A stretch of DNA of 21,584 nucleotides from a virus, in IMG/VR virus record IMGVR_UViG_3300045107_000856, positions 1 to 21,584 of that record; one strand, written 5' to 3'. The number at the start of each line of letters is the position of its first letter. Positions within the stretch are counted from its first letter, which is position 1. This document shows positions 2,293 through 21,584 of this stretch, piece after piece. A program made the translations under genes and the position numbers. The notes beneath the pieces are model-generated. The model saw only the letters and a list, made by a program, of their open reading frames with translations. It ran no database searches and was not told the DNA's origin.

Positions 2293-3558
2293 CTATGCCA
2301 GGCGTAGACGGGCGAACGCCTCCTCATGCACCGGCATCCCGTCCACCTCCATCCGGCCGATGTAGCCCACCTGATTCGTCCGGCTGTACAGCTCCATCAG
2401 CACCTGGATCTCCAGGCTCAACGCCTCAGCGATCCAGTAGTACGAGAAGTCGCCAATCACCGCCACGTACTGGCCCGTCGACACCGTATTTGGCGCAAAC
2501 TCCGACGACAAGAACGGGATGTCCACGATCGTCGGCGGCAACGACCCCGTCAGGCCGCCACCTGGCCCCAGACCCGGCGACCAGATGTAATTGTTGTCGT
2601 TGTCCTTCAGCTTCCGCACCAGCTTCAGCACGTCCCGGTGAAGGATCATTCGAGCTTTCGGCCAGTACGCCGGCTTCAGCTTGAATTTCAGATCGATGAA
2701 GTCGTCCCCCTCCACTGCGGTCGCGCTCGCCGCCGTCACGTCCCGGCCCGTCGAGACTCCATTGGTCGACGCGGTAAACACGCCGAGCGGCTGATTCGCC
2801 CCCGAGCCAGTCAAGAAACCTTTTTCCTCGGTGACGGCGAAGCGGTACGCCAGCCGGTCCCGCACCAGGTTCTCCACGTTGATCGTCGCGTGACGGAGCA
2901 GCTTGCGGGAGATCTTGATCTCCTTCGACAGCGGATTGGGCTTGAGCTCGCGCTTGTTGAACGGCTCGACCGTATCCTCCGCTCCCACCGTCAGTTCGCT
3001 CGTCCACTCCGCGTCCGACAGATCGCTGTCCATCACCGGAATACCGAGCGACTCCGCCTTTTCCAGCTTGTAGATCGTCGCCAGGCCACGGATCAGCACC
3101 GCGTCGTCAATCGCTTTGATCAGCTCGTTCACCACCTGCTGCGGCGCCGTGAGATAGCCGCCAGCCGGATCCACGTCCGCCCGCAGCGACTTCGCTTCAT
3201 CCGCATTCAGACGGTTCGGCCCTTGGCGCAGCGCCCGCGACCACGCCTTCATATACAGCGCGTTGTCGTCGCCGCCCTGCTCCCGGCCCTCGCCCGGCTT
3301 GCCCTTCATGCCCTTCGGGGCGTCAAGGTCGTTCTGGGGCTGGTTCAGCCCGTCCACCTGGCGCTCGCGGGCCGCCGCACCTTCGAGGCGCTTGGCGTTC
3401 GCGATGTGCTTGTCGAACGCCGCGAACCACTGGTCCACCTCGTTCGACTTTTCCTGCGGCATTTCCTTGTCGCCATACTCGTCGAGCAGGGCCTTGGCCT
3501 GGCCGTAGTACTCCGTGGCCTTGTTGTACTCGTCCTGAATACGCGCTTGCAGAGCCAT
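2293..3558 (-). CDS. Major capsid protein, HK97 fold
   Basis: This is the capsid shell subunit, 421 residues. Residues 1 to about 105 are a charged coiled-coil and linker segment, matching the HK97 delta/scaffolding domain that the prohead protease removes. The mature part starts near residue 105. It contains the family landmarks DPAGGYLTAPQQV (130-142), an E-loop region with WTSELTVGAEDTVEPF (185-200), KISRKLLRHA (215-224) and FLTGSGANQPLGV (248-260). The start at 3558 has GGGGGA 9 nt upstream, and only 3 nt separate the gene from the stop of the protease gene. A hairpin follows downstream (2237-2266). Codon use matches the rest of the operon. Confidence 0.95.
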   Translation of the reverse strand: MALQARIQDEYNKATEYYGQAKALLDEYGDKEMPQEKSNEVDQWFAAFDKHIANAKRLEGAAARERQVDGLNQPQNDLDAPKGMKGKPGEGREQGGDDNALYMKAWSRALRQGPNRLNADEAKSLRADVDPAGGYLTAPQQVVNELIKAIDDAVLIRGLATIYKLEKAESLGIPVMDSDLSDAEWTSELTVGAEDTVEPFNKRELKPNPLSKEIKISRKLLRHATINVENLVRDRLAYRFAVTEEKGFLTGSGANQPLGVFTASTNGVSTGRDVTAASATAVEGDDFIDLKFKLKPAYWPKARMILHRDVLKLVRKLKDNDNNYIWSPGLGPGGGLTGSLPPTIVDIPFLSSEFAPNTVSTGQYVAVIGDFSYYWIAEALSLEIQVLMELYSRTNQVGYIGRMEVDGMPVHEEAFARLRLA

Positions 3559-12593: not shown

Positions 12594-12629
12594 GAGCATA
12601 GTGTACCAAAAATGATCCCGCCATGTCAA
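12593..12629 (-). promoter_or_regulatory. Late promoter, minus strand
   Basis: TTGACA (plus positions 12624-12629) is followed after 18 bp by TACACT (12600-12605), preceded by TGG as an extended -10. The expected start is G at 12593, the first base of hairpin arm A. It faces away from early promoter P1, about 70 bp distant. Confidence 0.7.
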
Positions 12630-12632
12630 TTC

Positions 12633-12660
12633 TTGCATCAAAATCACAAAGATCATGCAA
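12633..12660. promoter_or_regulatory. TTGCAT / ATGCAA inverted repeat between divergent promoters, candidate operator
   Basis: TTGCAT at 12633-12638 and ATGCAA at 12655-12660 are perfect inverted half-sites 16 bp apart. They sit between the -35 boxes of the late promoter and P1. The same half-site recurs near other early promoters: as a compact palindrome at 15181-15198, in the form ATGCAG...CTGCAT at 18692-18707, and as a single site at 14079-14084. Confidence 0.5.
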
Positions 12661-12708
12661 AAAACCGCAAGATATTGACTAGGCAGTAGATAGAATATGG
12701 GGTATACT
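12657..12708 (+). promoter_or_regulatory. Early promoter repeat P1
   Basis: This is the first of four 52-bp repeats. The -10 is TATACT (12703-12708), and 17 bp upstream is TAGGCA (12680-12685) as a possible -35. The spacer GTAGATAGAATATGGGG is identical in all four copies. TTGACT overlaps the upstream side, where the other copies have TTGGCT. It drives the 12748, 13045 and 13492 genes. Confidence 0.75.
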
Positions 12709-12747
12709 AACGTCATTCGAGCCGATGACAAAGCCAAGGAGCCACCA

Positions 12748-14064: not shown

Positions 14065-14100
14065 GACTGTCATTTTACTGCATGATCTCGCAAGCGAACG

Positions 14101-14152
14101 GCAAAAAGTCGCAACAAATTGGCTAGGCAGTAGATAGAATATGGGGTATAGT
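14101..14152 (+). promoter_or_regulatory. Early promoter repeat P2
   Basis: TAGGCA (14124-14129), the 17-bp conserved spacer and TATAGT (14147-14152) lie within the same 52-bp repeat as P1. It is preceded by a single CTGCATGA half-site (14078-14085). The downstream leader ATCGAAACGAACG recurs after P3 and P4. Confidence 0.75.
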
Positions 14153-14204
14153 TACCTCATCGAAACGAACGGCACCCACCGATAAGACAGAAAGGACCAA
14201 CACC

Positions 14205-15180: not shown

Positions 15181-15198
15181 CATGCAATTTTTTGCATG
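15181..15198. promoter_or_regulatory. CATGCAA-TTTT-TTGCATG palindrome upstream of P3, candidate operator
   Basis: This perfect 7-bp inverted repeat with a 4-bp spacer lies about 40 bp upstream of the P3 -35 region. It carries the same half-site as the 12633-12660 element. Confidence 0.5.
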
Positions 15199-15215
15199 TA
15201 ATTGGTTACAAAATG

Positions 15216-15267
15216 GCAGAAAGCCGCAACAAATTGGCTAGGCAGTAGATAGAATATGGGGTATAGT
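15216..15267 (+). promoter_or_regulatory. Early promoter repeat P3
   Basis: TAGGCA (15239-15244), the identical 17-bp spacer and TATAGT (15262-15267) lie in the third 52-bp repeat. The leader CTATCGAACGAACG follows. Confidence 0.75.
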
Positions 15268-15305
15268 AGACCTATCGAACGAACGACACCCGAAAGGACA
15301 CAGCA

Positions 15306-16462: not shown

Positions 16463-16532
16463 GCCCCACCTCGGCGGCGAGGCCCACCACCGTGCCGACT
16501 GCAACTATTTACTCAAAATTGGTTAGAATATT

Positions 16533-16584
16533 GCAAAAAGTCGCAAGACATTGGCTAGGTAGTAGATAGAATATGGGGTATTAT
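16533..16584 (+). promoter_or_regulatory. Early promoter repeat P4
   Basis: TAGGTA (16556-16561), the identical spacer and TATTAT (16579-16584) lie in the fourth 52-bp repeat. The leader CATCGAAACGAACGA follows. It heads a run of seven small genes ending at 18608. Confidence 0.75.
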
Positions 16585-16624
16585 TATCCCATCGAAACGA
16601 ACGACCACCCGAAAGGACGCCGAA

Positions 16625-18679: not shown

Positions 18680-18707
18680 TGGTATCATTCCATGCAGGAA
18701 ACTGCAT
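18680..18707 (+). promoter_or_regulatory. Extended -10 promoter with an ATGCAG/CTGCAT palindrome over the start codon
   Basis: TGG TATCAT (18680-18688) is an extended -10. ATGCAG-GAAA-CTGCAT (18692-18707) is a perfect 6-bp palindrome that spans the expected transcription start and enters the ATG at 18706. A protein bound here, or the hairpin in the RNA, could block expression of the first ParB-like gene. Confidence 0.5.
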
Positions 18708-19770
18708 GATGGAGTACTGGACCGTGCAACAAAGCGAACAGCCACCCCAGAACCTCGCCGAGCAGCCGCCCGTCGAGGTCAAAGCCGGCGACGACCTGCT
18801 CGCCCTCCGCTATATCCCCATCAGCCACGCCCGCGCCTGGGATCGCAACCCCAAGCTCCACGACTTGCAGAAGCTGGTCGAGAGCATCGAGACGTACGGG
18901 TTCAAAGACCCGCCCGCCTACGACGTCCAGCTCGACGCCTTTGTCGAGGGCAACGGCCGCACCGAGGCCCTACAGTGGATGGCCCGCCACGGGCGCCAGC
19001 GCCCCCGAGGCATCGCCATTGACGTCCAGACCGGCGAATGGTGCATGCCCGTCCTCTTTGGCGTCGACGCCGCAAGCCGCCTGATGGCCGAGCGCTCAGA
19101 AATTGAAACGCAGTTGTTTGACCTTGCGGAGCTTACGAGGTTTGCGATCGTGAGGAAGTCGACCGGGAATGTAATGACCATGCAATTCACTATGGCAATT
19201 GACGCACAATGTCAATCCGTTACTAATCTCATACCGCAGATCGGGGTAATCGATCCAGCTCTTGATATGGTGGGCATGAAGAGACCCACCACGCTTGCGG
19301 CAATGCTGGCAGGTGTAATTATCTCGCTCGAAAACAGCCTTTCGCCACGTCTTATACTCGCTGCGGCCATACAAAACTTGCCGTTCCGATTGAGAACCCC
19401 TCCAATTCGGGTTTTCGTTCCCCCGCCTCCACATAGGATTGTCCCGCATCGACTCTCGCCATGCCGTATTTTCATGTCGACGCTTAATCCCCTCCATAAG
19501 AGCAGCGCGATAAGACGAACGCTTTGTGCGTTCCGCCGAGCCCTGCCGTTGTCGTTCACGCCATTCCTCCGACCCGGACCGTCGCGCAATCCCTTGTTCC
19601 CACAATGCACGAAACGACGGATCAGCATAGCGTTGCAGCGCTTTTTCGCGCTGTACGGCACGGCTACATGCAATAGAGCAATATTTTGCGTTCTTTCCGC
19701 CAGTAACAACACCGTCGCAACCTTCTCTGGCACATATTCGCATAATCCACCTACTAATATAGCCATTTAA
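18706..19770 (+). pseudogene. 5' fragment of a ParB-like gene, truncated by the HNH insert
   Basis: The native part is residues 1-130 (to 19095). A short Pro/Glu leader precedes a ParB-N-like domain with LRYIPISHARAWDRNPKLHD, LVESIETYGFKDPPAYDV, VEGNGRTEALQWMARHG, RGIAIDVQTGEWCMPVLFGVD and SRLMAER. 'NPKLHD' and 'EGNGRTEAL' correspond to the ParB box and the GxxR box. After 19095 the open frame simply reads the antisense of the HNH gene for about 224 codons, so any full product is a chimera. AGGA lies 6 nt before ATG 18706; ATG 18709 and GTG 18724 are alternatives. The remainder of the original gene resumes at 20141 under the second copy. Confidence 0.75.
19096..19743 (-). CDS. HNH homing endonuclease with NUMOD-like motif
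   Basis: This 215-residue endonuclease has three parts. An N-terminal zinc finger carries CAREGC and YCSIAC. A charged middle holds a NUMOD-type DNA-binding motif (DNPMWRRGNENPNWRG). The C-terminal HNH domain has VFERDNYTCQHC, LHAHHIKSW, NGLTLCVNCHSEL and a basic tail. Freestanding HNH enzymes of this type are mobile homing genes. Codons and third positions are clearly more AT-rich than the flanking phage genes. Its TGA falls at the inferred left edge of the insert. AGGTGG precedes the ATG, and a TGG-TATAAT extended -10 lies on the minus strand at 19778-19786. Confidence 0.9.
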   Translation of the reverse strand: MRICAREGCDGVVTGGKNAKYCSIACSRAVQREKALQRYADPSFRALWEQGIARRSGSEEWRERQRQGSAERTKRSSYRAALMEGIKRRHENTAWRESMRDNPMWRRGNENPNWRGSQSERQVLYGRSEYKTWRKAVFERDNYTCQHCRKRGGSLHAHHIKSWIDYPDLRYEISNGLTLCVNCHSELHGHYIPGRLPHDRKPRKLRKVKQLRFNF

Positions 19771-19819
19771 CTCTAATATTATACCACATCAGCAGTATAA
19801 GACAATAATAGGTGATAAA
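19744..19819. promoter_or_regulatory. AT-rich divergent promoter region inside the insert
   Basis: On the minus strand TGG TATAAT (19778-19786) serves the HNH gene. On the plus strand AGTATAAGACAATAATAGGTGATAAATTG holds a weak TATAAG -10 candidate (19795-19800) and AGGTGA 4 nt before the TTG start at 19820. Confidence 0.5.
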
Positions 19820-20680
19820 TTGAGTGATTTACTGCGGCTTGAATACATACCATTATCTAAAATACGGCAGTGGGATAAAAACCCCAAACTACACGATATT
19901 GGGGCGATTGTCACGTCTATCGAGCGATATGGGTTTATCGACCCGCCAAAGTTCGATCCCACGCTCAATGATGGTGAGGGCGGACTAGTCTATGGAAACG
20001 GGCGCGAAGAGGCCCTCGCGTGGATGGCACGCCACGGTCGGCCAGTACCGCGAGGCATTGCCATTGATCCACAAAATGGTGAATGGTGTGTGCCAATTAT
20101 CTTTGGCGTTGATGCTGAATCACAGATAACTGCAACGATGCTCGCCATCGACCACAACAACCTCGTCCTCGCCGGCGGGAACTTCACCGCCGCCGACTAC
20201 GCCAGAGCCTGGGGGCCGGGCTATGCCGCCATTCTGCAGGACACCCAGCGAGCTGGCCAGCTCCCCGTGTCCGTCGACACCGACGACATTGAAAGCATCT
20301 TGGCCGACGCCGGCGTCACCTCGAACGACAGCAGCCGAGACGCCCAGCTCGACGAAGGAGAGAGCCGGGGCAGCCTCTTGGAATTGGCCCAGATCGCCAG
20401 GGCCGAGCCACGCCATAAGCCCCTACGCGGCCAGGTGTGGCACCTCGGTGACCACCTGCTGATCATTGCCGACGTCTACACCGATTGGGCACTCTGGGCG
20501 CCCCATCTCACAACCGACCGCGATGTATTCCTGCCCTACCCCGGCCCCTTTGTCTGCTTTTCCGAGCTGTCATTGGAGCGCCGGCTCGTCATGGTCCAGC
20601 CCGACTACTACGTCGCCGGCCACATGATCGACGAGTGGGAAAACATTCATGGGGAGGGCAGCATTGTCGAACCTGATTAG
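19820..20680 (+). CDS. Chimeric ParB-like protein (second, intact copy)
   Basis: This 286-residue protein starts at TTG with AGGTGA 4 nt upstream. Residues 1-107 form the imported ParB-N-like domain: LEYIPLSKIRQWDKNPKLHD, VYGNGREEALAWMARHG, RGIAIDPQNGEWCVPIIFGVD. From LAIDHNN (108) onward codon use is native. The C-terminal part (about 200-286) reads LRGQVWHLGDHLLIIADVY...FLPYPGPFVCF...LVMVQPDYYVAGHMID. It resembles the methyltransferase domain often fused to phage ParB-N domains ('W.LG.H.L..gDs'), but PYPG stands where DPPY would be, so it is probably not an active methylase. It overlaps the downstream TGT-like gene. A DpdB-like partner role is inferred. Confidence 0.75.
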   Translation: MSDLLRLEYIPLSKIRQWDKNPKLHDIGAIVTSIERYGFIDPPKFDPTLNDGEGGLVYGNGREEALAWMARHGRPVPRGIAIDPQNGEWCVPIIFGVDAESQITATMLAIDHNNLVLAGGNFTAADYARAWGPGYAAILQDTQRAGQLPVSVDTDDIESILADAGVTSNDSSRDAQLDEGESRGSLLELAQIARAEPRHKPLRGQVWHLGDHLLIIADVYTDWALWAPHLTTDRDVFLPYPGPFVCFSELSLERRLVMVQPDYYVAGHMIDEWENIHGEGSIVEPD

Positions 20681-21584
20681 AACCGGCGGCGGGCGCTACG
20701 ACCCCACCGACAAACCGCTCTACTTTATTAGCTCGAACACCGACCGGCTACGCCAGGCAGGGCCGATGCACGATTCGATCCTTGTCGCAGTCAACGAATT
20801 GCGCGGCGAAAAGGACCGTCAGATCGTCCAAGGCTTTTTCGCCGGCGGCGCAAAGATTCTGCTCGACTCGGGTATCTTCAACCTGGGTATGCAGCACGGC
20901 CGCGCCCACGACCTGGGGTTCTACGAGGTCTTGCAGCTCGCCCCCGAGCAGATCGACGGCTTTGGCAAGCTAGAGGACGCCTACACCCAGCTCGTCACCG
21001 CCTACGCCGATCAGCTCTGGGGCTACGTCGAACTCGACCAAGGCGGGATGCACAACAAGATCCGAATGCGGGCCAAGTTCGAGGCCAAAGGGCTGCGCCC
21101 CATCCCTGTCTACCACCCGTTGGTGGATGACCCGTCATACTTCGACTACCTCGGCCAGCGCTACGATCGGATCTGTATCGCCAACGTCGTCCAAAGCCCG
21201 ATCGAGGTCCGCCGCCGCATTCTCGCCACCGTTTGGGAGAAAAAGCGGCGCTACCCCGAGCTATGGGTCCATGTCCTCGGCTACACCCCCGACCCCCTGC
21301 TCAGCGCCTACCCCTTCGAGAGCGCCGACAGCTCGACCTTTTTGGCCGCCATGCGGTGGGGCCTTGCCCTTGACCGCGCCTTTGGCAAGCCGCTCGACCT
21401 CCGGCGTGGCTTTGTGCCGGGGCTGCTCTCCGAGGGCGTCAGCCAGGATCACCCACGCGGCAACAACAAAGCCACCCGGCTCGCCGGGATGCTCTCCGAC
21501 GCCCAAGAGCGCATATGGTCCCATAGCCTCCACCGGCTCGACGAACTCGGCGCCCCCTATAACCCACCACTACAGGAGGAATAG
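20664..21584 (+). CDS. TGT/DpdA-like transglycosylase family protein, candidate DNA-modifying enzyme
   Basis: This 306-residue protein has motifs of phage homologues of tRNA-guanine transglycosylase and DpdA: ILLDSGIF (65-72), LWGYVELDQGG (118-128), GLRPIPVYHPL (143-153), RICIANVV (169-176), LWVHVLGYTPDPLL (200-213) and FESADSSTFLAAMRWG (218-233). The paired aspartates in LDSG and VELD, and the DSS segment, are in the order expected for this TIM-barrel family. DpdA enzymes exchange guanine for a 7-deazaguanine base in DNA. TTG at 20664 is preferred because GGGGAGGG lies 6 nt upstream; ATG 20649 is an alternative. It overlaps the ParB-like gene by 17 nt and ends at the window edge. Confidence 0.6.
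   Translation: MSNLIRTGGGRYDPTDKPLYFISSNTDRLRQAGPMHDSILVAVNELRGEKDRQIVQGFFAGGAKILLDSGIFNLGMQHGRAHDLGFYEVLQLAPEQIDGFGKLEDAYTQLVTAYADQLWGYVELDQGGMHNKIRMRAKFEAKGLRPIPVYHPLVDDPSYFDYLGQRYDRICIANVVQSPIEVRRRILATVWEKKRRYPELWVHVLGYTPDPLLSAYPFESADSSTFLAAMRWGLALDRAFGKPLDLRRGFVPGLLSEGVSQDHPRGNNKATRLAGMLSDAQERIWSHSLHRLDELGAPYNPPLQEE

Follow-up and report, generated by a model that had tools for sequence, protein, structure and literature searches.

In an uncultivated virus, a GC-rich ParB-like gene has been broken by an AT-richer insert, and two divergent copies of the same gene end now flank an HNH endonuclease gene, the inserted copy being in frame with the rest of the gene. We consider it reasonably probable that the insert is a homing endonuclease element carrying a replacement gene end. 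The window, that is, the whole stretch of DNA analysed, is a linear IMG/VR virus record of 21,584 bp. Its minus strand carries the head and tail module (portal, protease, and capsid), its plus strand carries small GC-rich genes, and the ParB-like and dpdA-like genes overlap at its right end. The role of dpdA is in 7-deazaguanine DNA modification, and the interrupted gene lies directly upstream of it. The features around the break are the following:

18706..19095, plus strand: orphan native 5' fragment with a ParB-like N-domain, 130 codons (phrog_620, E=1e-8)
19096..20140, no strand: insert of 1,045 bp, whose deletion gives a single in-register open frame
19096..19743, minus strand: HNH endonuclease, 215 aa, HNH motif intact (PF01844)
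19778..19805, minus strand: promoter-like site of the HNH gene, TTGTCT-16-TATAAT with extended -10, a consensus match only
19820..20140, plus strand: foreign replacement ParB-like N-terminus, 107 codons, TTG start, AGGTG ribosome-binding site
20126..20143, plus strand: donor-to-native crossover zone (composition change 20135-20141)
20141..20680, plus strand: native C-terminal part (rest of the ParB-like domain and methyltransferase-like tail), read from the foreign N-terminus
20649..21584, plus strand: dpdA-like gene, queuine tRNA-ribosyltransferase family (phrog_887, E=4e-18)

The interrupted gene and its insert

The break point of the ParB-like gene lies at 19095|19096. An earlier note on this DNA had placed the cut at 19095, followed by an AT-richer block of about 1.05 kb with an HNH endonuclease on the opposite strand and a divergent second ParB-like N-terminus fused in frame to the native part at 20141, and all of this has been borne out. 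A base-composition scan sets the left change point at exactly 19095, and a codon-usage scan sets the right one at 20135, the codons from there to 20141 being uninformative. Third-position GC drops from 0.885 in the orphan to 0.505 in the HNH gene and 0.467 in the second N-terminus, and is high again in the C-terminal part (0.821) and in dpdA (0.817); the uniform codon usage across the insert that the note had named as evidence against its reading is therefore absent. Over 103 aa, the two N-termini share 62% identity (E=6e-45), and the corresponding DNA repeat (18943-19070 and 19988-20115, offset 1,045 bp) is 72% identical. By its third-position GC and by the codon change points, the fused copy is the foreign one and the displaced copy the native one, and the N-domain tree described below does not contradict this assignment.

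When the flanks are joined at 19095|20141, one open frame of 309 aa results, and its alignment with the chimera and with the family needs no indels; taking out precisely 1,045 bp gives back a family member of full length with its register fully preserved. Both joins therefore fall on the same target codon boundary, as expected if one break gave both ends. This boundary lies between the codons for ...LMAER and LAIDHNN..., the joined site being GAGCGC|CTCGCC (in longer form ...CTGATGGCCGAGCGC|CTCGCCATCGACCAC...). No convincing repeat links the two joins, since the GCTC found at 19094 and 20140 is just 4 nt long and out of register. The earlier proposal of a homologous join on one side and a non-homologous join on the other agrees with this, as the left join has only that tetranucleotide.

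The orphan 5' fragment and the chimeric full-length gene of the earlier note are both present. The orphan has no early stop, as its frame continues open, antisense to the HNH gene, from 19095 up to 19767 (about 224 codons). A fusion protein could thus be made from 18706-19767, as far as the reading frame indicates. The true orphan start may instead be the GTG at 18724, because a ribosome-binding site is better placed there.

The HNH domain is intact (PF01844, E=5.1e-7, above the cut-off), with conserved Cys pairs and an HH...N motif, and the closest solved chain is 5h0m. The stop codon of the gene forms the first bases of the insert, at its left edge. Promoter-like sites of the HNH gene are no better than chance, their number not being above the shuffle mean. 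With no intron or intein around it, the enzyme would be classed as free-standing. The candidate intein was rejected, as the HNH gene is antisense and the C-terminal part is read from an independent start.

The target family and its relatives

A profile built on dpdA retrieved about 80 viral loci and two actinomycete genomes. A ParB-like protein, of about 245-390 aa in most loci, is encoded upstream of dpdA in all 76 loci with room upstream, at a distance of 250 nt or less in 72 of them. An HNH gene in or directly beside the ParB gene was found in none of the 76 loci, nor was a second ParB N-domain adjoining that gene. The ParB-like gene, present and free of HNH, therefore accompanies dpdA constantly and in uninterrupted form, except in the window. 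Tandem full ParB-like genes without an HNH, which the earlier note had named as evidence against it, are likewise absent, none of the 76 loci having two beside dpdA. The comparison with related phages that the note had suggested has been answered in part: the uninterrupted gene is found at the 76 dpdA loci, but a close intact relative of the interrupted gene is not. As a separate observation, a ParB-like protein with a methyltransferase-like tail, seen in loci L042-L122 and in the window (19820-21584), accompanies this type of DpdA almost without exception.

The N-domain matches ParB, Noc, and Spo0J, and the C-terminal part resembles the end of ParB-methyltransferase fusions (phrog_498, E=1.5e-7). 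The predicted structure of the chimera (mean pLDDT 84, pTM 0.56) has a ParB-type N-domain, with Foldseek matches to Noc/ParB at E of about 5e-4, and no confident match was obtained for its C-terminal part. In this model the join would sit within a helix, at residues 102-115.

In the collections searched, the N-domain relatives closest to the orphan are those of L116-L118, at 44% identity, and no closer intact relative of the interrupted gene was found. Searches with exact peptides of the chimera against viral contigs and genomes gave no close relatives, degenerate N-terminal motifs matched 208 stretches with no relatives among them, and neither the portal gene (for kin phages) nor the whole window (against phages) retrieved any relative. 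A donor with an HNH gene on the minus strand beside a close ParB N-terminus was not found in the viral, genome, phage, and plasmid collections. In the N-domain tree, the orphan, the insert, and L118 form one clade (100/98), within which the orphan and L118 are weakly grouped (92/86) and the insert and orphan are not resolved as sisters. With the orphan nearer to L118, the insert looks like a sister lineage and not like a fresh duplication; the tree is consistent with a sister-lineage donor.

Recurrence beside other HNH genes

The loci of related HNH genes were scanned for homology between their left and right flanks, with sham positions for comparison. Flanking duplications were found at 12 of 98 HNH loci and at 12 of 300 sham positions; with tight flanks, the counts were 9/94 and 16/799 (p=0.0005), and in an enlarged set 12/148 viral HNH loci and 29/944 sham positions (p=0.008). 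Under a gene-end criterion, 9 of 148 HNH loci and 20 of 1262 sham positions were positive (p=0.002). The enrichment is about 3-5 fold, by a mechanical criterion that also catches tandem paralogues and over loci that are not fully independent; the sham matches are largely tandem paralogues or intergenic repeats.

By inspection, nine C-terminal cases were accepted, together with L004. In the nine, an intact target end adjoins the HNH gene, and a divergent second copy of the last 17-26 residues lies beyond it, on the far side of the HNH gene. Their targets, and the N-terminal locus, are the following:

L011 and L012: DNA methyltransferase, phrog_498 (the two may represent one event)
L019, L150, and L216: DNA methyltransferases whose N-part is ParB-like, as judged by eye or from the phrog_498 profile position
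L107, 4879-6856: glutamine amidotransferase-QueC in a dpdA phage, followed by the HNH gene and a displaced second QueC C-terminus
L289: protein weakly similar to major head proteins
L036 and L161: protein of unknown function
L004, 3353-5719: ParB N-fragment fused in frame to a related HNH, directly upstream of a full ParB-methyltransferase

The break in L004 falls within about 5 residues of the ParB position broken in the window, and its ends carry 13-bp direct repeats (CGTTGACACTCCG) at 3367 and 4253. It is a related N-terminal case, whichever of its two copies is the newcomer. Counting the window, 7 of the 11 accepted loci have ParB-like or DNA-methyltransferase targets (the window, L004, L011, L012, L019, L150, and L216) and one has QueC, which suggests that DNA-modification genes are favoured targets. 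In L036 (3118-4291) and L289 (1973-3744), the HNH frame continues in frame into the displaced C-terminal tail, so that the nuclease may have acquired the C-terminus of its victim.

A rule that the 5' end of the HNH gene faces the replaced gene end holds for the window, L011, L012, L019, L036, L107, and L289; it was dropped because L150, L161, L216, and L004 disagree. This variable orientation of the HNH gene relative to the rescued gene counts against the homing reading. Four further loci were rejected as examples of the broken-and-refilled pattern: L230, where the match is antisense, and L168, L175, and L197.

At 14 HNH loci of named phages, flanking similarity was seen only at Haloarcula tailed virus 2 (HATV-2, L210), at the unannotated L206, and marginally at L211 (E=0.006), none of them convincing. 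HATV-2 (gp92-gp95) is the only one of the 14 with even a weak flanking gene duplication, a scarcity that counts against the homing reading. Its HNH gene gp93 is flanked by two genes for SprT-family metalloproteases (40% identity over 63 aa), an arrangement that may represent an ancient form of the pattern in a virus of archaea. Another observation concerns L013 (4393-6302), where two neighbouring adenine-methylase-like genes have a block of 75% identity in common, a case of tandem duplication in another HNH-carrying phage.

Proposed mechanism, alternatives, and precedents

It is well established that breaks can be repaired with homology at one of their ends, and the following course may be proposed for the window. 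Two ends would have arisen when the intact ParB-like gene suffered a double-strand break or a nick between the LMAER and LAIDHNN codons. Of these, the right one would share homology with the ParB-like gene of an AT-richer phage infecting the same cell; it would have invaded that gene and copied leftwards, taking up the ParB N-terminus of the donor and then the adjacent HNH gene. The left end, having found no homology, would have been attached, end to end, immediately beyond the stop codon of the HNH gene. In this way zero native bases need be lost, the target site would be destroyed, the gene would be rescued as a chimera with a foreign start, and the native 5' piece would be left stranded; the C-terminal cases would be the mirror image of this repair. 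The HNH enzyme of the window is the putative maker of the break; the donor phage and the order of the repair steps are those that we infer, and the chimera is presumably expressed and working. Homing from another phage, as the earlier note had put it, gains from the recurrence near other HNH genes, but no donor turned up in the collections searched.

The association of the pattern with HNH genes is not proof of HNH action, because nuclease genes generally sit at phage exchange boundaries (PMC10448857). The HNH could be a passenger in a block that came from another phage by ordinary mosaic recombination, with homology on the right, an illegitimate join on the left, and no cutting here. Phage genomes are mosaic, the frequent boundary position of HNH genes fits, and the GCTC match at the joins is compatible with an illegitimate join; on the other hand, both joins fall on the same target codon boundary and displaced gene ends recur next to related HNH genes, and we regard a mere passenger as rather unlikely. 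An assembly chimera, in which the metagenomic contig fuses two phages, comes to mind with a linear, uncultivated IMG/VR record that has no close relatives. It would, however, take two assembly errors, of which one kept both frame and register and the other arose with no sequence in common, and the GC-rich phage would have to be the same to the left and to the right of the insert. Similar architectures also occur in independent contigs; a chimera of this kind is improbable.

Two old tandem ParB-like genes, the first decayed and the HNH lying between them, are more improbable still. Such pairs have a model in L004 and L067, each with two ParB-like N-domain ORFs, but among the other dpdA-adjacent loci a second one occurs only in L067, on the far side of dpdA. 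Moreover, the end of the orphan coincides with the composition change and is in register with the join, and the second N-terminus is compositionally foreign while its C-terminal part is native. Finally, a group I intron or similar element, if spliced out at 19095|20141, would leave the native frame perfectly restored. Against it, the final 321 bp of the insert (its 3' third) encode a ParB N-terminus that has a separate start, the HNH gene is antisense, and no Rfam match around it was found at gathering, with none meaningful at E<=1; no ribozyme core being found, a self-splicing group I or II intron was rejected as a candidate and deserves hardly any credence.

The preferred reading, a homing element with a replacement gene end, has precedents in fungal mitochondria, where endonuclease ORFs carry foreign C-terminal gene ends that displace the native end, the hybrids being transcribed (PMC3630166). 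Mobile-ORF hybrid genes of this kind are described for Allomyces atp6 (Paquin, 1994, via PMC3630166) and for Glomus atp6, atp9, cox2, and nad3. As in the window, an endonuclease ORF in the gene comes with a foreign divergent gene end that displaces the native one, and what is then read as the gene is the hybrid; those cases, however, are mitochondrial, with LAGLIDADG or GIY-YIG enzymes and C-terminal replacement, whereas the window is from a phage, with an HNH on the opposite strand and N-terminal replacement. Another example is that of Tremella mitochondria, whose elements have N-terminal duplications and for which partial foreign gene replacement has been proposed (PMC7315562). There too, insertion of a mobile element partly replaces a gene and a duplicated gene piece flanks the element, although the Tremella elements are intron-linked and some are spliced, whereas no intron was detected in the window. 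These elements are a better analogue than the inteins invoked in the earlier note, whose likeness is weak.

In phages, endonuclease insertions are known to split genes into separate polypeptides (PMC2988022). The window resembles mobE/nrdA of Aeh1, mobA/gene 60 of T4, and seg43 in having an HNH or GIY-YIG gene inside a phage gene (PMC2988022), but there the gene is split and two polypeptides reassemble, whereas here the replacement end restores one chain. It also resembles exon co-conversion in phage intron and seg/mob homing, in which donor sequence replaces the flanking target during repair (PMC2988022); standard co-conversion, however, has homology on both sides and leaves no displaced fragment, whereas the window has one-sided homology and the fragment stays. 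The phrog_498 ParB-like/DNA methyltransferase and the dpdA-adjacent ParB-like gene of Microbacterium phage Megan share family and operon context with the target, and are uninterrupted. Targeted literature searches, with subscription papers outside their reach, gave no phage example of a gene-end-replacing element, and the broken-and-refilled pattern does not appear in the available part of the work on nuclease genes at exchange boundaries (PMC10448857). Given the fungal precedents and no phage example, the element belongs to a known kind, and its setting and geometry are new, the pattern being known so far mainly from fungal mitochondria. The best reading, by analogy, is that the window element would be the phage counterpart of those hybrid-gene elements. 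Evenly balanced, in our judgement, is the broader claim that widespread phage HNH elements, as counterparts of the mitochondrial ones in bacterial viruses, spread by breaking genes and refilling them with a foreign gene end, N- or C-terminal, with a preference for ParB/DNA-methyltransferase and other DNA-modification genes, leaving a scar fragment and steadily generating chimeric genes.

By carrying a substitute for the gene end that it displaces, such an element would abolish the cost of landing in coding sequence; the replacement would also guard the element against clean loss and directly generate chimeric proteins. The displaced fragment would be a fossil of the cut site and of the repair direction, and, as it marks the cut site, sequence data could reveal where uncharacterised HNH enzymes home. 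Finally, the window contains four intergenic repeats of about 97 nt (12624-12720, 14068-14164, 15183-15279, and 16500-16596; core TTGGCTAGGCAGTAGATAGAATATGGGGTATA), each before plus-strand genes, which by position are probably a repeated phage promoter or operator.
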